From the NCBI RefSeq assembly GCF_003144245.1, contig NW_020289980.1, positions 682,001 through 746,000 of the forward strand: a stretch of 64,000 nt of DNA, read 5' to 3'. Shown here one piece after another: positions 18,916 to 54,304 of the stretch. The notes below the pieces were generated by a model that was not told where the DNA came from, searched no databases, and saw only the letters and a list, made by a program, of their open reading frames with translations. This stretch comes from Jaminaea rosea (lineage: Eukaryota; Basidiomycota; Exobasidiomycetes; Microstromatales). The position numbers were made by a program, and so were the translations under genes. The first letter of the stretch is position 1, and each line of letters begins with the position of its first letter.

Positions 18916-21456
18916 CTACTGCTCCGCTCCCTCGCTCCCCCCTTCCGCAACCACCTCCCACCTCAACAAGCTCCCCACCTCCGGCTTGAACTTCATCGCC
19001 TGCCGAGTCATATGGTCCAATCCCCCAACTCCACTGGTAGCGGTGCAAAGAAGAGACTCAAGTTGCTCCACGCTCCCCCTCGAAGGCGGTATAGCTGGTC
19101 TGCCCTCCCTCTGCGATCTCGCGAATCTCGCCGCCTCCCTCCCCACCTCAACGAGGTACCCTTCTTCCGCAACTCTCCGTCCCAACTCGACACACTCCTC
19201 TACCCAGCGCACGCTCACCACTTTCACCTGCTCCGCCTGCGCCTCCGCGTCTGCCTCCGCCCCTGCCTCCGCCCCTGCCTCCGCACCTACCCCACTACCC
19301 CTCGCCATTAGACCACGAAGGTAGCGCAGTGTGCTCGGTGTCCCTCCCTTCCAGACTATGTGCGTCAATTGTCTCCGCGAGTCTGCAGAGGGGCAGCGAG
19401 AGGCAACTTTGGCGCCGAGAGAGCGTAAAGTGGCCGCGTAGGGAGGGGAGAGGTCCTGACCGGTGGGAGAGCGGATGGAGAGGAGGACGGCGACGCCTTT
19501 CAAGGGTCGGGTGGTAGAAGGTGCGACTGGCCGTGCAATCGGTGGCGCAGCCGTCGGTGTGGTCGACGTCCTCGTGGGAGGATCTGCCTTTGCGAAGTGG
19601 GTCGAGTCGCGCGACCTTCGAACAGGCATCTCGGCTTCCGTTTCTCCCTCATCCAGCACCTTGCTTCCGATGCGTTCAGACCGATTTTCCTTCACAGCAG
19701 GAGGAAGTGGGCCGGCGCGCAACGTCCTACTCTCCTTCTTCGACTGTTGCTGACGAGCCGGCAGCGGCGACGATGAACGCGATCTACTGGTGCTCGAGGG
19801 CAGAGAAGCTAACGGGGAAGCGGGCGACGTCTCTCTCGTCTTCGGTGTGCGAGGACTGCGCCTCACCGCAGCCGCAGCCGCGGCTACGGGCGAAGACTCA
19901 GGCGTCAAGAGCTCGACGGCGGCTTCGTCCTCTTCGTCCTCGGACATTGCGGCGGCGCCCGAGCTCGATGGAGAGGAGTGCAGCGAGAGGGCTGCGAGTT
20001 GTTGTGCTACACTGGACTTCTTGCGACGCAGAGGGGCGAGAGGACGAAGTGACCGGCCCGGGGTATCGGGATCGCTGCGAAGCGACTCTTCTGGCGAGGC
20101 AGGGCTCGATGTCGCCTCTGCCTCTGCTTCTTTTCTCTCAGCTGCGACTGCTTGCTGCGGCCCTGCCTGCTGTCGCCTAGCCGCTCGAGCCCTTTCCAAG
20201 AAGCTGGGCGACCCAGACGACGTAGTCACGCCGCTCGCGCCGCTCTTGCTGTTCGCCATCCTCCGTGCCAGGTCATCAAAGGAAGGCTGCTTGCGCGGCG
20301 AGTTGCCTGCATTATCCGCTCCGCGCTCGACGTTGAGGAGGCGTTGTACGTGGCGAGAGGAGGAGCTGCTTGTGCTGACCGAGTTGTTCGAGCGACTTCG
20401 CAGGCTGTCCGGCATCTGAAGAAGGGGCGGTGCCGAGCTCTCCTTGGGCGATGATGATGACGAACGGCGGGTATCTTGCTTCTCAGGCGGGTCATGAAGC
20501 GGGGATGTGGACCTGCTCTTCACGCGTTCTTCGCTTTCATCGGTAGGCTTTGCAGAATTGCTCACCCTCCTCGCCACTCCTAAGGGCGATCGAGGCTGCG
20601 CCTCCTTTGCCAAGGTGCGGGAGCTTCTCTTACGACTCAGGATCGGGGAGGAAGGAAGTTCCGCCGGCTTGGCGCTGGGCGATGGGGATGGAGAAGAGGA
20701 GGCTGGAGGAGAGGGAGTGAGGTCCTCAGATGAGGCACGGGCATGGTATGATCGGCGGGTATATCGCGGCGGCTGATCGCTGGGCTGGGATGGGCTCGCA
20801 TCGGGCGAGTCGCTGAGACGACGCTCTGCTTGAATTCGTCTCCTCTCCTCTAGGCGTGCGAGGACTGTTGACGTCGACTTGAGGGACGATGCGCGACGCA
20901 GTGGTTCGGCTTGCGAGTCTCTACTCTTGACCGCCGCGTCTGACTGACGAAGACGAGCGCGCAGACGGTCGAAGCGCTCTTGGAATGCTTGGTGAGAGGA
21001 AGGCAAGGGTGAGGAGGGCAAGGGCGAGGATGCTGCGGGCTCCACCAGAGGCGATGCAGGGTCGTACTCTGCCCTGTCAGCCGGCTTCGGCGGTCGCGCC
21101 CTGGTAGATCGAGTCGGCGTCAACGGAGCAAGCTGCGCAGCTGCGGGGCCATCCCGACCCGACGCTGACCTCCTGAGCGCCTCTCTGAGCTTGTCTTCTG
21201 GCTCTTCCGTCTCTCTGAGGCCATCGCTCTGCTCCAAACTGGCGACGCGGGTCTGCGAGCGGCGAGTCAGCGGCGTTGACGATGTTGGCATGCGTTGAGG
21301 CGAGGAAGACGAGGACGATGTTGGGTCTCCTGTTTCTCTACGCCGCGATCTTGAGCCGCTTGCTCCTACGCGAGGTGTTGATGGGCGAGGTGTTGATGAC
21401 GATGATGATGGATGTTTCGTGGTCGCCAGCGGTGGACTGGAGGCCACCATGGCCAT
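18916..21456 (-). CDS. BRCT-domain protein, microcephalin-like
   Basis: Single exon, 846 residues from the ATG at 21456. About 640 N-terminal residues are Ser/Arg/Pro-rich and disordered, with many SP and TP sites that could be CDK or MAPK targets. One BRCT domain lies near 652-765: KGVAVLLSIRSPTGQD, then LRSLGAKVASRCP, QLTHIVWKGG, STLRYLRGLM, and the Trp of VKVVSVRWVEECVELG. The long beta1-loop with THIVWK and the STLRYLR helix resemble the N-terminal BRCT of microcephalin (MCPH1). An Ala/Glu/Gly repeat of about 25 residues interrupts the domain before its last strand. The tail includes MTRQAMKFKPEVGSLL. BRCT domains bind phosphopeptides or DNA ends in the damage response and cell-cycle control. 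The fold is clear; the MCPH1 link is tentative. Confidence 0.82.
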   Translation of the reverse strand: MAMVASSPPLATTKHPSSSSSTPRPSTPRVGASGSRSRRRETGDPTSSSSSSPQRMPTSSTPLTRRSQTRVASLEQSDGLRETEEPEDKLREALRRSASGRDGPAAAQLAPLTPTRSTRARPPKPADRAEYDPASPLVEPAASSPLPSSPLPSSHQAFQERFDRLRARLRQSDAAVKSRDSQAEPLRRASSLKSTSTVLARLEERRRIQAERRLSDSPDASPSQPSDQPPRYTRRSYHARASSEDLTPSPPASSSPSPSPSAKPAELPSSPILSRKRSSRTLAKEAQPRSPLGVARRVSNSAKPTDESEERVKSRSTSPLHDPPEKQDTRRSSSSSPKESSAPPLLQMPDSLRSRSNNSVSTSSSSSRHVQRLLNVERGADNAGNSPRKQPSFDDLARRMANSKSGASGVTTSSGSPSFLERARAARRQQAGPQQAVAAERKEAEAEATSSPASPEESLRSDPDTPGRSLRPLAPLRRKKSSVAQQLAALSLHSSPSSSGAAAMSEDEEDEAAVELLTPESSPVAAAAAAVRRSPRTPKTRETSPASPLASLPSSTSRSRSSSPLPARQQQSKKESRTLRAGPLPPAVKENRSERIGSKVLDEGETEAEMPVRRSRDSTHFAKADPPTRTSTTPTAAPPIARPVAPSTTRPLKGVAVLLSIRSPTGQDLSPPYAATLRSLGAKVASRCPSADSRRQLTHIVWKGGTPSTLRYLRGLMARGSGVGAEAGAEAGAEADAEAQAEQVKVVSVRWVEECVELGRRVAEEGYLVEVGREAARFARSQREGRPAIPPSRGSVEQLESLLCTATSGVGGLDHMTRQAMKFKPEVGSLLRWEVVAEGGSEGAEQ

Positions 21457-22294
21457 TGCGGTAGCCAAGAAAGAAGGAGAAGGGAGGCTCGTGGCCGGCT
21501 ACGGCATTGATGGTGGTAACTCGTTGAGAATGGCCGCCTCGCTGCCGCCCGGCCAAAACAACACCGCGCCTGTCTCGAATCTCGCGGGCGTCGCGTGGGA
21601 AGAGTAACACAAGCTGAGCCGCGGCAATCTCTGGTGGCGACGCTTGCTGCTTCCGCTCCTTCCGCTCCTAGGTGCGGACGGAGCGGAGGAGGATGAGAGA
21701 GAGACGCTGACTTTTGGTGGCCGCGGCCGGCGCCGGCGTGCAGCTCAGAGCGCTCCAAGATGGCCGCCTTTACCTTCTCGAGCTTCCTGTTAGCATGGGT
21801 GGCTGCAAAGGCGCGTGGTTGAGAGGGTGTGATGGTGGGCTTGATAGAAAGCTTGCGATCATGTGAACATATTTACGCAACGAATCCACTCATTACGATC
21901 TTCGCTCGAGCAGGACGAGGTCCCGATGCTGCCCCTGTTCGGCCCCGCTTCAGTTTGGAGGCTCCACCGCCGGACCGCCATGCCATGCGATGCGCCCAGC
22001 CTGGCCAGACATTACGACGACGAGGGGGCGAGGTCCAGAGTGCGCCCATCCATCCATTCATCCATCCGACCATCCATCAGCACCCTCATCACGGCGAGCC
22101 ACCGAGCATCCAAGTGTGTGCTGTGTCCGCCTGCCTTTGTCCTTTCTGACCCGCAGTGAGCGACTCGCCGTGTTCTTGCATCCGCTGCCCAACAGCTCCC
22201 GTCTTGGCGCCATTGAGCTCGTAACGTCCAAGGGTGCATCCATCCGCACCGCCAACGTGTCCACACAACGCCTTCTTCACACTGCGAGCTCTCC
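21457..22294. other. Divergent intergenic region, BRCT gene / HFI1
   Basis: An 838-bp shared upstream region. It contains a CATCCATC-type short repeat at about 22045-22080. Frames here are short and lack domains. Confidence 0.5.
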
Positions 22295-25249: not shown

Positions 25250-28200
25250 ATGGCTGTGAAGGGGGAAGAGCTCACGCAACGCAAGGCGAGCGAGATGAGC
25301 ACATCCAGCGCCGTCAGCGCAGCTCGAGTGCCTTCTGCGTCCGCTCAGCAGATGTACATCCTCAAAGCTCGTGATTCGGTTCAAGTCCTCAAGCAGGAGC
25401 TGAGCGCCATCGCTCTAGCTGACGACCACGAGGGGAAGAAGGAGAGCTATAAGGAGGCGGAGGACTTTGTGAAGTCGCTGCTCAGCATGGTGAGTGTATG
25501 CCACCGTGCAGGCGGGTGGTGCGCCGCGTGGTGCTCCTTACTGACTGAATATCTCGCTCGTCCGCACAGCTACAAAAGGGACAGGTCGCGCCCAGCACGT
25601 CTCTCCTCAGCACCTTGCAGCACATCGTAGCCATCCAGAAGCGCAGCCTTGAGTACCTCCTCAAGCGCCTGCCCCTCGCCACCTTCAAGGCTGTCGCCGC
25701 CCTGCACGAACAGATGTGGTCGACTGCCATCCCCGACCTGTACAATGCCAGGAACAAGGTCGAGAGCCGGATGGATCAGATACTGCACGACGAGTTGAGG
25801 GTCGAGATGGTGCAGTTGTGCCACAAGGCCACAGCGCTGGCTGTGATGAGGTTGAAGGAGCTGGAAAGGGGCACGACGAGGGAGGCAATCGACTTGGCCG
25901 AGGATTGTGAGTGCACGATAGGCCTGCGATGCTCTCTGATTTACTGACGGTGCGCTGCTTCGAAACCATCGCGGCGCAGGCTTCGAAATCTACTGTCCCG
26001 TCATTATGCCGAGCATCAGTGACATCCTTTCTCACTCCTCTGACGCCTACCTCGGCTGGCTCGACAGCGCCCAACATCAAATTGACGTCCTTCACGAGCT
26101 CACTCTCTCCAAACTGGGCAGGCACTACGGGCGTCGTCTCCTCACGTCCCAGGTCCTAGGCTCTATTTGGGTACGCGCACCCACGTACGACATCTCCTCC
26201 GACCTGCTCTGGATCAGCCGCGCTCTCAGGCCGAGGCGGGAGGACTCGCAGGGGCTGGATTTGCGAGAGTGGGATGTGAGGCAGGAGGACTACTGGCACC
26301 GCTTCTTCCAGCCCTTTGTGCACCCTTCGTGCGACTTGGAGACGCTGGACGCAGCAGAGACAAAGAAAAGGGCAGAGGTTGTCGAGGGCTTGGTGCGGAA
26401 GTGGGTAGAGAGTGGGGGAAACAGCCTAAACGCCGTGAGTGAGCGTGATGCAGGGCCAGTGCGCTGCGGCTGCGGCTGCTTGTTCTGACACGCGTGTTCT
26501 ACTCACTCGCACAGCTCATCCGCGAGACTATCCGATCGGTGGGCGAAATCGATGAGACCCGGTGAGCGTGACCAGACAAGGACGCCAAAGACAACTTTGT
26601 GCTCACTGGCATCCACACTCTTGCCCTGCCAGACCTCAAGTCCTGGTCAGCAGCGGAGTCACCTTTCAGCTCGTGGACCGCAAGCTCCCCCTCTTCACAG
26701 GCGAAGCCGAGAGCTACACCAAGACGACGGACACGCAAGTCATCCTCGACTACAACTACCTCGAGTTCGGCTTCACCGAGTTTGAGGAGACGCGCAAGCC
26801 CGAGAACAAAGATGGCGACTTCATCAAGGCGCACATGCCTCTCAACAAGCTCGCCTCTGCCGATTTCAAGGTGCAGGTCGCGGGCCATGCGGTCATCACG
26901 CTCTACTTTGCGGCCGAGGACGATGAAGACGCCAATGCTAGTGGACCGATCCTTACTGCTGAGCGACCCGACGGCGAGCCCTATCCTTTGGGCGACGATG
27001 ACATCATTGCTATTGAGATACGGTGCAGCGCGGGCAGTGTGGCGCACTACAGGGCTGGATTGGCTGATCGCGGCGTGCTGGTGAGCGACCACTATGTTAA
27101 CCAGCACTCGCTGGGAAAGGAGATCTCGGCTCCTATCTTGGGGCCTTTCAAGCCGAAAGAGCAAGATGGTGAGGAGTATCACGACGTCGCGCCGAGCTCG
27201 CCCGCGTCACCCCCTCCCGAGCAAGAGCAAGAGGACAAAATCGACGATGGTCCACGAGAGCTCAGCCCTCTCGCAGAGCCCAAGACGCTCAACGACACGA
27301 ACGTCACGGGTACGGTTGCGCCGGCAGCCTCAGTCAAGGGAAGCCCCTCTTCCTCGGAGCTCACTTCGCCTTCGCCGTCCGAGGAGAGTCGCGCGGCTAC
27401 GCAGACTGGAGCCACCGTGCCTTCTCAGGGAGGCGACATTCGCGCTCGCACAACGCCCACACCAGCGCCCTCTGACACCAACTCCGGTAAAGGCACGCCG
27501 GGCAGCTCGACCAAGTTTGGTCCGGCGCAGAGGAAGGTCAAGAGCGCAGCCCAGCCTGCGGAGAAGAAGAAGAGCGACGAGTCGCAGACGAAGGGCAAGG
27601 GTAACCAGTCGCAAGCCAAGAGCAAGATCGACGATTCGCAAGCGAAGGGCAGAGCGAAGAAGGACGCGCAGCAGCAACAGACGCAAAAAGGGAACGTACC
27701 TAAGGGGCGAGGCCCAGGCCCTGCCACGAAGAAGCGCGCTCAACTTCGGGGAGACGTCACGGACGAGGATCACGATGAGGCCGAAGTGCAAAGCCAGACG
27801 CAAGTTGCTCGCCGTCAGCCCGCACGCAAGAGCAAGGCCAATGCAAAGAAGCTCAAGCTGCAGTCATCTAGCCAATACGAGAATGAGTCGCACAGCGAGG
27901 ATGGGGATGATGAGAAGGATGGTGGACCGAGCGTTCTGGCTGCCAAGTCGAAGCCCAGGCCGCCGAGCATGAGCAACGGAGCAATCGAGAAGGCAACTAC
28001 CTCGCGCGGCTCTGGAGTCGCTGCGTTGCTGCAGCAGAAGAGGGGAGCTCGTCGAGTCACGGCGCAGCTGCAGAACGGTAGCAATGATCAAGGAGGAGAT
28101 GACGCAGGTGACCCCAGCCAGTCGTCCACGGCTCAGTCTCTGACCATCGCGGCCACAACGAAGACCAAGCCTGAAGCTGCGGCAACGAAGAAAAAGTCTG

Positions 28201-29419
28201 CTACCGCCCCTTGGATGATGACTCAGACCGCTCAGAGTATCCAGCAACGCCAGGCCGAAGAGGCAGCCGCTGGAGAACAAATCGAGTGGGACGCAAGGTC
28301 TGACTCTGAGCGAGACCCTCCAGCCCCGCCCGACCACGGCGATCAAATGGACGTCTCCGCACTTAACATGGGAAGCGCCACCGAAGACGAGGACGACGAC
28401 AAGAGCAGGGAGCAGCGTCTTCGTACTCCGCAAAGCCCAACGCAGGCTGTACTTCAGCGACGTGCTGCCAATGCTGCCGCGAGCCAGCCATCGCCGACTG
28501 CGACTTCTCGTAAGCAAGCTACCACGTTCGACCGCGACGCAGCTGCGGGTGCTACGGCCCCACCCGATCTTACCGTGGGTCCCGCTGCTACCAAGAACAA
28601 GAAGCTTCGCCTCAGCGACGTCGGCGAAGATGATCAAACGAGCCCCACAGCAGTTTCCACGCGCAACGCTACCATCGATGGAGACGTGGTCTCGATGTAT
28701 CTCAGCACCAAAGAAGCCAACACGATCAAGCGCGCTCGTCAACTTCGAGCTTCAAGGAAGGGCGCCAGCGGAGGGTTTGCGGAGCCAACCGCCACCACCA
28801 CGGCCACAGCCGCGACCCGCAAGCGCAAGGCTGGAGGGGACTCGCCTGGCAAGAAGCGTCAAAAGGTAGCTCGGGAGAAGACGCCCGAGGTGAAGGATCA
28901 TCACGACGACGTCGAGAACAAGCAGCACTTCCCCGACGCGGATGACGACGACCTAGGCAGAGCCACCTGGCAGCACATGCGCAAGGGTATGCGCCTCGTC
29001 AAGTCGACCCTCTCGCCCGAGTCGAACCAAGACTCCGGCATTGGCGGCATCGAATCAGACGACGATGATCCCAACCTGCCTCTTCTCCGCCCCCACACAC
29101 GCGCAAATGCAACGCGCCAGGGAGCGCACGAGATGGAGCAGGCTCAGAAGAAGGCGCTGCAGCTCGCCGAGCAGCAGGAGAAGGAGAGCATCCAGAAGCG
29201 CTGTGCTGCGGTGGGGGACAAGTACGAGCGCGATATTGATGATGCGCAGGTGCGGCTGGACGAGTTGACGAGCTATATGTGCGTGCGGCGCGAGACGACT
29301 AGACCAGAACTGTGCTTGCTGACAATTCCTTCTGCGCTCCCGCTCACAGCACGTCGTTGCAAGGTCGATTCAATGAGATGCAAGCATGGCGACGAAGGGT
29401 TTTTGCCAATCTCGAGTAA
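25250..29419 (+). CDS. Candidate meiotic chromosome axis protein (Red1/Rec10/SYCP2-like architecture)
   Basis: Six exons (25250-25489, 25570-25906, 25980-26434, 26515-26561, 26633-29278, 29350-29419) join in frame to 1264 residues. All introns are GT-AG and 63-80 nt long. Residues 1-360 are helical and globular, for example STLQHIVAIQKRSLEYLLKR and FEIYCPVIMPSISDIL. Residues about 360-540 look beta-rich: VLVSSGVTFQLVDRKLP, VILDYNYLEFGFTEFE, FKVQVAGHAVITLYF. A 650-residue Lys/Ser/Gln/Glu-rich disordered linker follows. The last 75 residues form a coiled coil: EMEQAQKKALQLAEQQEKE, YERDIDDAQVRLDELTSY and FNEMQAWRRRVFANLE. An armadillo-like helical domain, a PH-like domain, a long linker and a C-terminal coiled coil is the plan of meiotic axis core proteins SYCP2, Red1 and Rec10, which assemble filaments and bind HORMA proteins. 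Fungal members are very divergent, so this assignment rests on architecture, not motifs. A cohesin-associated or other chromatin protein is possible. Confidence 0.7.
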
Positions 29420-50302: not shown

Positions 50303-53300
50303 ATGCCGATGCGCAACAGTGACTTCACAAAGTCCTTTGTCCGCAAGCCCGGCTCTCGTGCCACTGGCGGTGACACATCAATACCGATCCGTACAGAGGC
50401 TCCACCCCCTCTACGCCAGCCAACACGCATAGCGCGCTCCAAGACCTTGACCCGCCCTGAGCGATTTCAGCCACAAGTTCCACTCATCAATCCGCAAGAG
50501 GGTCCTGCCTCAGGGAAATCAGAGCCTGGTTCACCGACATGGCGCATCTTTTCGCTCCTTGTTACCTTTTGGGCTTGTAGTCCGTGCATGAAGGCGTGTG
50601 GGATCAAGGATCGACCCAGCCAGCAGGCGTGGAGGGAAAAGGTGGCACTGGTATTCCTTGCGCTGTGCATGGGCGGGTTTGTGGGGTTCATCACCATGGC
50701 TCTGAACCGTGTACTCTGTCCCGTGTCTGTCTCGGCGGACTCGACGTTGTTCGATCGGATTGGTAGCGGCAATAGCGCGGCGTTGGGCATTCAGGGCTGG
50801 TGAGTTCTGCGGCCAGAAAGCAGGCGGAAACGATGCGCCCTCTGCGGGCGGTGATACTGACCTCTCATCCCCTCCCCACTCTCGCTGCTCGCAGGGACTT
50901 TGACGTCTCACAAGCCAAGCTGCCAGGCGCAAACGACGTCGGAGTCAATCTATACACGATGGCGTCGACGCTCTCGGGCTTCGACGTCACTCCCCTCTTC
51001 ACTCGCACCGACTTCCCCGCCTGCGCAGGCAAGACGGCCGCCTACGCCACGGCGGACAGCTGTACGCCTGCTGAAGCTGGGCAGGCTAAATGCCCGCTCG
51101 GCGCCCTGACTACGGCGCACCTCGCTGAGCTCAAGCTCACCAACATGACGCGCCGCGTGGGGTACGGATGGGACGATCTGGGCAACGCCACCTTCCGCAA
51201 CTACATTGTGCTGGACGGCAACGTGCTCAACCTCACGCCTTATATCAATGCTCACCCAACCGCAATCGCAAATGACAAGGTCGATCTGGCTATCCGCACG
51301 CAGCTCACCAGCATCGACGCAACGGGCGGGCGTGATGCGACGAAGCTCTTCTACTCTAGCAGCGAGACCAAGGACGCTGTGCGCTGTCTGGTGCAAAAGT
51401 ACTACGCGGGACACATAGACAAGGTATCGCCGGGCTGTTTCGTGTCGGACCTGTTCCTCTACGTCTCCCTGGTCATCATCCTCGGCCTGGTTTTCGTCCG
51501 CTTCCTCATGGCCATCTTCTTCTCCTGGTTCATGAGTGCAAAGATGTCTGCCCCACCCAAAGAAGACGGGCGACGCAAGCTGGGGCACAGCATGCTGCCC
51601 AACGGGGCCATGAGTACCGTAGACGACGGCGGGGCGGCGCCGTGGGCTGGCGCGGGGGCTAAGCAGCAGCAGCAGCGTCGCCTCGTGTCGGATGCATCGT
51701 CGCAGGTGTCGAGCAACTTTGGGAGCGGGGCGCTCAACCGGCAGACGATTGGCAATGAGCCCTACATCATCTGTCTGGTGACGGCCTATTCCGAGGGCGA
51801 AGAAGGGATCAGCAACACCTTGACTTCGCTAGCAGAGTGCGACTACCCGGACACGCGCAAGCTCCTCTTCGTCGTGGCAGACGGTATGGTGACGGGGTCG
51901 GGGGAGAGCCAGTCCACGCCTGACATCTGCGTAAGTTTGCTCGAGGCGGACGAGCGCTTCGGCACTCCCATGCCCATGAGCTTCGTGAGCGTCGCCCAGG
52001 GCAAGAAGCAGCACAACATGGCCATGGTGTACGCGGGCCATTACGTGCGCGCAGGAGGGCATCGCACGCCGATGGTCGTCGTGGTGAAATGCGGGACGAG
52101 CGATGAGTTCAACGAGGCCAAGCCTGGCAATCGTGGCAAACGAGACTCTCAGATGATCCTCATGAATTTCCTGCAGCGCGTGACGTACAACGATCGCATG
52201 ACCCCCTTGGACTTCGACCTCTTCCGCAAGTTCCAGGGACTCATGGGCGTCACGCCCGACTTTTTCGAGTTGATCCTCATGGTGGATGCGGATACCAAGG
52301 TGTTCCCGCAGGGGATGCGCAAGTTGTCCAATGCGATGATGCGGGACCATATGATTATGGGGGCTTGCGGTGAGACGAGGATTGCAAACAAGACGGCGAG
52401 CTGGGTGACGGCGATTCAAGTATTTGTGAGTAGCCCGGCGCGCGGCCGCGAGGGCAGCTGTGCACCAGGGCGCGGGCGCAAGGACGCGCACGCTGACTCT
52501 TCTTGTCTCCTCGCCACGCTGCGCGTACACCAGGAATACTTCATCTCACACCACATGGTCAAGTCCTTCGAGTCCGTCTTCGGCGGCGTCACCTGTCTGC
52601 CCGGCTGTTTCTCCATGTACAGGATCAAGGCGCGCAAGCCCAGTGACGATGACTGGGTGCCTATCATTGTCAAGCCCGAGGTGACGCGCGAGTACTCGCA
52701 GTCCACCGTAGTCACGCTGCATCAGAAGAACCTCCTCTTGCTTGGAGAGGACAGGTTCTTGACCACTTTGCTGCTTAGGACTTTCCCGAATCGCAAGATG
52801 GTCTTCGTCCCGCAGGCAAGGTGTAGGACTGAGGTGCCCCATACGTTCAAGATGTGAGTGTGCGAGGCGGGGGCACGAGAATCGCGAGCGTCGACAAAGA
52901 GGCCAAGCTGACCCTTTATCCTGGCTTGCTCGCACGCCCAGGCTCCTCTCACAACGCCGTCGCTGGATCAACTCGACGATCCACAACCTTATGGAGCTCG
53001 TCCTCGTCCGCGACCTCTGCGGTACCTTCTGCTTCAGCATGCAGTTCGTAGTCTTCATGGACCTAATCGGCACCGCCGTCCTCCCCGTAGCCATCTGCCT
53101 CACCTACGTACTGATCGTCTCGTACTGCCTGGACCCTCCGCACACCTTCTCGCAAGCCATCCCCTTGATGCTGCTCATAGCCGTCATCGGTCTACCGGCG
53201 GTGCTGATCCTCATGGCGACACGCAAGGTAGTCTACGTCATGTGGATGGGGGTGTACCTCATCTTCTTGCCGGTGTGGAACTTCATTCTGCCCGTGTACG

Positions 53301-54304
53301 CCTTTTGGCACTTTGACGACTTCTCGTGGGGAGAGACGCGTAAAGTCGAGGGTGAAGCCAAAGGGGCCGGGCATGGCGATGCCGAGGGAACGTTTGCGGC
53401 CGCTTCGGTGCCGTTTAGACGGTGGGAGGATTGGGAGAGAAGCAGGTTGAAGAAGCAGAAGCGCGAGGAGAAGCGGAGGAGAGAGATGGAGGAGCAGTAC
53501 GGCGGGGAGTTCTGGAATGACCAGCAGCAGCGCGATGCCGGGGCGGGATTGCAGCCGAGGGGTAGGCGCGACTCGGACTCTTTCTCGGATACGACGCAAG
53601 AGGATGTGTGGGGTGCGCAGATCGGCGTGTACGAGGAGGCCGCCCCGCCTCCGACGCGAATCGTGCGTCACACGATGATCATCGACAGTAACGACGTGCT
53701 CGGGGCTGGGGAACTGGAAGCCATGTTGGAGAAGGAAGGCTTCGAGCAACCAGCAGCACCCAAGCGCGGAGCCAGTCGTCGAGCCAAAGGGAATGGACCG
53801 AGTGGGCAGCCCCTCGCGCCCAGTAGAGCACAGGCGCGCAGGTCGGTGCGTTTCTCGCAGGCTCACCCGATGCCGCAGCGTAACAACAACAATAGGCACG
53901 GCAACGGCAGCCCGACGTCAGCGTCATCGCCGCACCTCCACCCAGGCAACAACGGTCACGATGCAGACCCGTTGCGACGCACGCCCAGCCCCCTCTCCAC
54001 TTTCACGCAGCACAGCACCAACTCCTTTGTGGCGTTGGGAGAGGAGGTCTCCCTCATGCGCGGCGTAGGCGGAGAACTAGGCTCGGCCACTTCTTCGCAC
54101 GGCGGCTTTGCGCTCGAAGACCTGGGACCGCAGAGGGGCGTCGCCGGGTCGGGGCAGAGCAGTGCGACTAGTACTGGGGCGAGTCCCTACGGGTTCGCGG
54201 GGGGACAGCAGGGACATGCGAGACAGCGTAGTCAGGGGAGTGGACAGCAGTATCATCGCGTGGACCTGGGAGGGCGAGGGCCACCCCAAGGAGGAAGACG
54301 ATGA
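50303..54304 (+). CDS. CHS3: Class IV chitin synthase
   Basis: Exons are 50303-50799, 50895-52425, 52534-52853 and 52942-54304, giving 1236 residues; junctions keep frame ([28 protein letters not shown]). Near residue 115 the block [20 protein letters not shown] marks the N-terminal membrane segments typical of class IV. A cytochrome-b5-like segment lies near 268-340 ([15 protein letters not shown]). Another membrane helix follows (350-380). The GT2 catalytic core has [25 protein letters not shown] (metal-binding DxD), [12 protein letters not shown] and LLSQRRRWI, all intact. Further helices follow (about 805-905), then a 300-residue disordered cytoplasmic tail with [13 protein letters not shown]. 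It polymerises UDP-GlcNAc into cell-wall chitin at the plasma membrane; yeast Chs3 needs chaperones for export. The assignment is firm; numbering within the CHS family varies between species. Confidence 0.95.

Follow-up and report, generated by a model that had tools for sequence, protein, structure and literature searches.

A possible divergent Red1/SYCP2-like chromosome-axis protein, and a Hop1-type gene, in Jaminaea rosea

A 64,000-nucleotide (nt) stretch of the Jaminaea rosea genome (contig NW_020289980.1 of assembly GCF_003144245.1, positions 682,001 to 746,000; hereafter the window) contained a candidate gene of six exons on the forward strand (25250-29419), which were joined without a stop codon into a frame of 1264 residues. 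A role in the meiotic chromosome axis was the single most likely reading of this gene, because its domain plan, a nuclear-localization-like motif, a cluster of SQ/TQ sites, and a Hop1-type partner gene in the same genome fit together. The product plausibly works like an axis scaffold, with family membership unproven. That it is a highly diverged Red1/SYCP2-like axis core, working like Red1, Rec10, and SYCP2, we rate somewhat short of an even chance. Jaminaea rosea belongs to the Microstromatales (Exobasidiomycetes, Ustilaginomycotina); the candidate and the Hop1-type gene lie in a clade scored as having neither, which makes it directly testable whether such absences from surveys are failures to see the proteins.

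The five introns of the candidate (80, 73, 80, 71, and 71 nt) were all GT..AG, with GTGAGT, GTGAGC, or GTGCGT at the 5′ end and CAG at the 3′ end, and every intron carried at least one branch-site-like CTNA[CT] motif 29-36 nt from its 3′ end. Retention of introns 1, 2, 3, and 4 resulted in stops at residues 127, 206, 362, and 361, respectively; retention of intron 5 left the joined stretch without a stop, but the end of the coil was replaced. Within the candidate exons, the pattern used detected no other in-frame intron that carried a branch-site motif. The spliced gene described by a first-pass annotation of this DNA is thus real. The same annotation had an exon of 47 nt splitting the folded N-terminus. 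That exon is also real, and its omission resulted in a stop at residue 395; it encodes residues at the border of the helical and beta parts and, as far as visible, apparently splits no domain.

Hydrophobic periodicity, compared with 20 shuffles, gave an alpha index of 1.39 (shuffles, 1.02 ± 0.15) for residues 30-345 and of 1.51 (0.98 ± 0.24) for residues 1185-1264. In residues 361-545 the beta index was 1.22 (0.93 ± 0.19) and the alpha index was 0.70 (1.03 ± 0.18); the signal is weak, and a beta-rich domain is weakly indicated there. The residues I, L, V, F, M, W, Y, and C made up approximately 12% of the linker that follows. The longest hydrophobic-poor run of the candidate spanned 491 scoring-window positions, compared with a maximum of 377 among 27 other frames of at least 600 residues; a run of at least 300 occurred in three of these 27, none of which had a C-terminal heptad. 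The best heptad of the candidate (residues 1222-1255; 0.9 in a simple heptad score) was at the C-terminus, and its register ran on across intron 5, with I1228, A1231, L1235, L1238, I1242, L1245, F1249, and M1252 at the a and d positions. A score of 0.9 was reached anywhere in 3 of 81 background frames, and a score of at least 0.775 within the last 100 residues was reached in none. The background consisted of 81 non-overlapping stop-to-stop frames of at least 300 residues, taken from the window (candidate frame excluded) and from 20 stretches of 10 kb; because such frames are unproven as genes and their true last exon is often missing, the base rate is only indicative. Within this genome sample the plan of the candidate was uncommon. 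At the level of composition, the plan given by the first-pass annotation holds: a helical N-terminus, a weak beta part, a linker of 640 residues, and, at the C-terminus, a coil of heptads.

The clustering of SQ/TQ sites in the candidate, not their total count, stands out. Seven sites per 100 residues were reached by 0 of 1000 shuffles of the whole candidate and by 7 of 1000 shuffles of the linker only, whereas the maxima of the 81 background frames were 0 (7 frames), 1 (22), 2 (28), 3 (18), 4 (5), and 5 (1). The Hop1-type protein likewise had seven sites per 100 residues (734-833 of the gene model used here), a density reached by 2 of 1000 shuffles. Clustered SQ/TQ sites are a mark of targets of the ATM/ATR (Tel1/Mec1) kinases. 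Hop1 is a substrate of these kinases (PMC12678776).

Three HORMA loci were found in the genome, corresponding to Mad2, Rev7, and a Hop1-type gene. Mad2 and Rev7 were separate loci with PDB matches at E 1.5e-23 and 8.9e-18. The Hop1-type gene (G000:C1:726500-733500, minus strand; HORMA at C1:730713-731375) is annotated as P0001, a hypothetical protein of 919 residues with a HORMA domain, and matched PF02301 at E 1.2e-10; a PDB search with its HORMA domain returned no chain at E ≤ 1, whether of a meiotic HORMAD or of Mad2. After the HORMA domain, a PHD-like pattern of seven cysteines and one histidine was visible by eye in the translation. Nine PDB sequences matched this region at E ≤ 1, the best being PHD finger protein 20 (E 0.03), with no Hop1 chain among them, and no Pfam PHD match was found in the protein at E ≤ 0.1. 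Across many fungi and animals, a PHD domain paired with a winged-helix domain forms the chromatin-binding region of Hop1; in the yeast protein, seven cysteines and one histidine of the PHD bind zinc (PMC10907721). The tail of the Hop1-type protein was SQ-rich. It also contained two near-repeats, TPRITSSFDP and APRITSRFLP, which were noted by eye as possible closure-motif candidates. The genome carried, in addition, a Spo11-type gene and two Rad21/Rec8 kleisin loci; the HOP2 model PF07106 gave no match, and its controls were silent, which makes that result uninformative. This setting (Hop1-type HORMA protein, Spo11-type gene, two kleisins, and SQ/TQ clusters) fits the axis reading.

A 2021 survey scores SYCP2-3 and HOP1 as lost together in Ustilaginomycotina, with reference to work on the absence of a synaptonemal complex from Ustilago maydis (PMC8131943). 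In a Wallemia genome paper that names Ustilaginomycotina and HOP1, the sole mention of Hop1 concerns Wallemia sebi, and no report of HOP1 in Jaminaea was found in the literature searched, a search that left most subscription papers uncovered. The Hop1-type locus speaks against HOP1 loss as a statement about the whole subphylum, whatever the candidate proves to be. That J. rosea keeps the full axis pair within Ustilaginomycotina, HOP1 together with a diverged SYCP2/Red1-type core, is a tentative proposal that we hold to be possible rather than probable. If it is true, the loss occurred within the subphylum, nearer the Ustilago side, the disappearance of the synaptonemal complex among smuts and their kin has to be placed elsewhere, and meiosis of the synaptonemal-complex type, absent in U. 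maydis, can be tested for in J. rosea. Since axis core proteins evolve very rapidly, a survey that records them as absent may simply have failed to see them. The first-pass annotation had pointed to teliospores as a stage for expression, a hint that is not directly transferable because J. rosea is named among phylloplane fungi (PMC7766764).

As an axis core, the protein would dock on chromatin or cohesin by its helical (ARM/HEAT-type) and beta (PH-type) N-terminus. A motif in the linker would recruit Hop1 through closure of the HORMA domain of Hop1, the SQ/TQ sites of the linker may serve Mec1/Tel1-type kinases, and the C-terminal coil would oligomerize into axis filaments.

Several observations weigh against an axis role. 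The Pfam models Red1, SYCP2_ARLD, and SYCP2_SLD were absent up to E 10 with the whole protein and with five pieces of it, a range in which HMMER filters discard most matches above E ~0.1; no Pfam family scored above its cut-off with the whole candidate, and PDB sequence searches returned nothing usable. No test of the two N-terminal domains showed an axis fold. The beta index of the disordered linker, where no signal was expected, was 1.11 (1.00 ± 0.13 in 20 shuffles). Because helical repeats and coils occur widely, architecture by itself counts for little. The total of 17 SQ/TQ sites (13.1 expected) was not unusual, being reached by 257 of 2000 shuffles, and the SQ/TQ feature was picked after looking, which makes it a lead. 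No segment common to residues 521-1264 and the C-terminal 202 residues of the Hop1-type protein scored above shuffles in an ungapped comparison (for lengths of 8, 10, 14, and 20, the best score was reached by 33, 91, 37, and 42 of 200 shuffles), and a cohesin SA-SCC1-type pattern had no match in the candidate. In the survey of PMC8131943, no SYCP2-3 genes were found in Ustilaginomycotina.

The Pfam miss is compatible with kinship, because the N-terminal region of Red1/Rec10 is itself highly divergent (PMC8131943); the membership criterion of that survey was E < 0.01 to clade-specific ARM-PH profiles. A genome-wide scan with the SYCP2_ARLD, SYCP2_SLD, and Red1 models gave no match, and since the controls were equally silent it was uninformative. 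Residues 361-545 and exon 3, each folded alone by AlphaFold2 without relatives, gave an all-beta model with a predicted local distance difference test score (pLDDT) of 36 and a model with a pLDDT of 37, respectively, both unusable; a Foldseek search with the former had no match at E ≤ 0.001 and was disregarded. In Red1 and SYCP2, the Hop1-binding closure motif lies directly after the ordered N-terminus. The HORMA closure-like motif sought in the linker after the first-pass annotation did not emerge above shuffles when the linker was set against the Hop1-type tail; closure motifs vary between lineages, so that this miss is no strong counter-evidence. The linker contains a hydrophobic island, PWMMTQ (window 28209-28226, plus strand; residues 886-891), which has no statistical support and faintly resembles the brown-algal Hop1 closure motif (K/R)MMMT(K/R) (PMC12678776). 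The proposed axis role is partly supported, by the anatomy and by the meiotic gene setting; no axis Pfam match, closure motif, or homologue was found for it, and the models of the N-terminal parts gave no usable fold.

The strongest alternative is a nuclear DNA-damage or chromatin scaffold outside the axis core, mitotic and in the style of checkpoint adaptors, in which a helical/beta module, a linker of kinase targets, and an oligomerizing coil are combined. We regard it as possible, if doubtful. The nuclear-localization-like motif, the hydrophobic-poor linker, and the coil are expected of such a protein as well, the SQ/TQ cluster also fits other DNA-damage proteins, and no meiosis-specific feature was seen in the candidate protein itself. 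Against this, the Pfam matches of the candidate included neither a BRCT nor an FHA domain, nor any other domain typical of adaptors. The best PDB sequence match of the beta part was an RNF8 chain at E 1.8; this is chance level, and the idea of an FHA domain that it suggested was dropped. No fold could be assigned in favor of either scaffold.

Less probable, and in our view unlikely, is a lineage-specific scaffold with an unrelated role (for example, in RNA processing, the kinetochore, or the cytoskeleton), whose likeness to SYCP2 would be a coincidence of composition. Homologue searches with residues 1-560 (7986 candidates sharing most words scored) and with residues 280-480 (877 scored) gave no match at E ≤ 10, as such an origin would have it. 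However, a control search with the Hop1-type protein (1775 candidates) returned one match, the P0001 of the fungus itself, and no other fungal Hop1; the search thus sees close relatives only, and the orphan status of the candidate is not established. The low-grade matches were scattered over unrelated families, which also suits this alternative. Among them, residues 68-175 weakly resembled the N-terminus of symplekin, an RNA 3′-end factor (PF11935; E 0.033, 14.2 bits, missing the cut-off of 25), and the C-terminal coil matched a coiled-coil domain of unknown function (E 0.0022, 18.9 bits, missing the cut-off of 40). The symplekin of this genome is another gene (C3:973687-974334, E 3.7e-47), and the PF11935 match therefore reflects HEAT-type helices at most. 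An order of parts that ends in the best heptad at the extreme C-terminus was uncommon in the sample, which also counts against a coincidence. A chimera of misjoined exons, from two neighboring genes or a wrong splice model, is highly improbable: the gene model comes from sequence and not from transcripts, and no database entry for the candidate itself was listed in the homologue searches (although the annotated Hop1-type protein of the fungus was), but five consistent introns with branch-site motifs, a reading frame that requires the 47-nt exon, and a coil register continuous over intron 5 all argue for a single gene.

Searches of the genome with exon 2, exon 3, residues 361-545, and residues 1135-1241 revealed no second copy. 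Four residual matches had E values of 0.012-0.79, and the two that were read were judged to be chance: the exon-3 match at C1:1927387 (E 0.012) had two internal stops and lay in another frame of a stretch whose long open frame is kinase-like by eye, and the match of residues 361-545 on C3 (E 0.79) fell within an open frame that looked unrelated on inspection. The other two were coil matches, on C12 (E 0.126) and C18 (E 0.35).

Features of the candidate gene (positions in the window) are listed by exon, protein region, and motif.
Feature	Position	Strand	Residues	Remarks
Exon 1	25250..25489	+	1-80	Start ATG within GCCATGG; leader rich in Ser and Lys, followed by a helix-like part
Exon 2	25570..25906	+	81-193	Codon 193 split; helical
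Exon 3	25980..26434	+	193-344	Helical by periodicity
Exon 4 (47 nt)	26515..26561	+	345-360	Links helical and beta parts; required for frame
Exon 5	26633-29278	+		Beta-rich part, linker, first part of coil
Exon 6	29350..29419	+	1242-1264	Includes stop; coil end
Beta-rich part	26634..27188	+	361-545	Start of exon 5; weak periodicity
Charged, hydrophobic-poor linker	27189..29108	+	546-1185	640 residues; by composition
SQ/TQ cluster	27582..27881	+	677-776	7 sites
Bipartite nuclear-localization-like motif	28818..28859	+	1089-1102	Pattern only
C-terminal coiled coil, first part	29109..29278	+	1186-1241	End of exon 5

Elsewhere in the window, a frame of 860 residues (18919-21498, minus strand) was mostly of low complexity and had no match in Pfam at E ≤ 0.01; its C-terminal stretch is BRCT-like by eye. 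At 50776-54301 (plus strand) lay chitin synthase frames whose N-terminal domain was CHS4/cytochrome-b5-like.

Among known proteins, the N-terminal domain of symplekin/Pta1 (PF11935) shares with the candidate only the weak likeness to residues 68-175, and it belongs to a separate gene of this genome. Ectocarpus RED1 has an arrangement of ARM domain, PH domain, and C-terminal coil, the latter modeled as residues 1075-1291, that is like the order of parts in the candidate, and differs from it in that its folds are predicted and one closure motif has been shown biochemically (PMC12678776). Unlike SYCP2, Red1, and Rec10, the candidate matched no Pfam model, yielded no closure motif and no usable predicted fold, and sits in a subphylum reported to be without the family. 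In size, its 1264 residues compare with 1500 in mouse SYCP2 and 827 in yeast Red1 (PMC6349405). Red1 orthologues follow a plan of ARM domain, PH domain, linker, and coil (PMC12678776; PMC8131943). Like SYCP2, Red1, and Rec10, the candidate has, at the level of composition, a helical N-terminus, a weakly indicated beta-rich part, a long disordered linker, and a C-terminal coil in the same order, and, as for these proteins, a Hop1-type partner gene is present in its genome.

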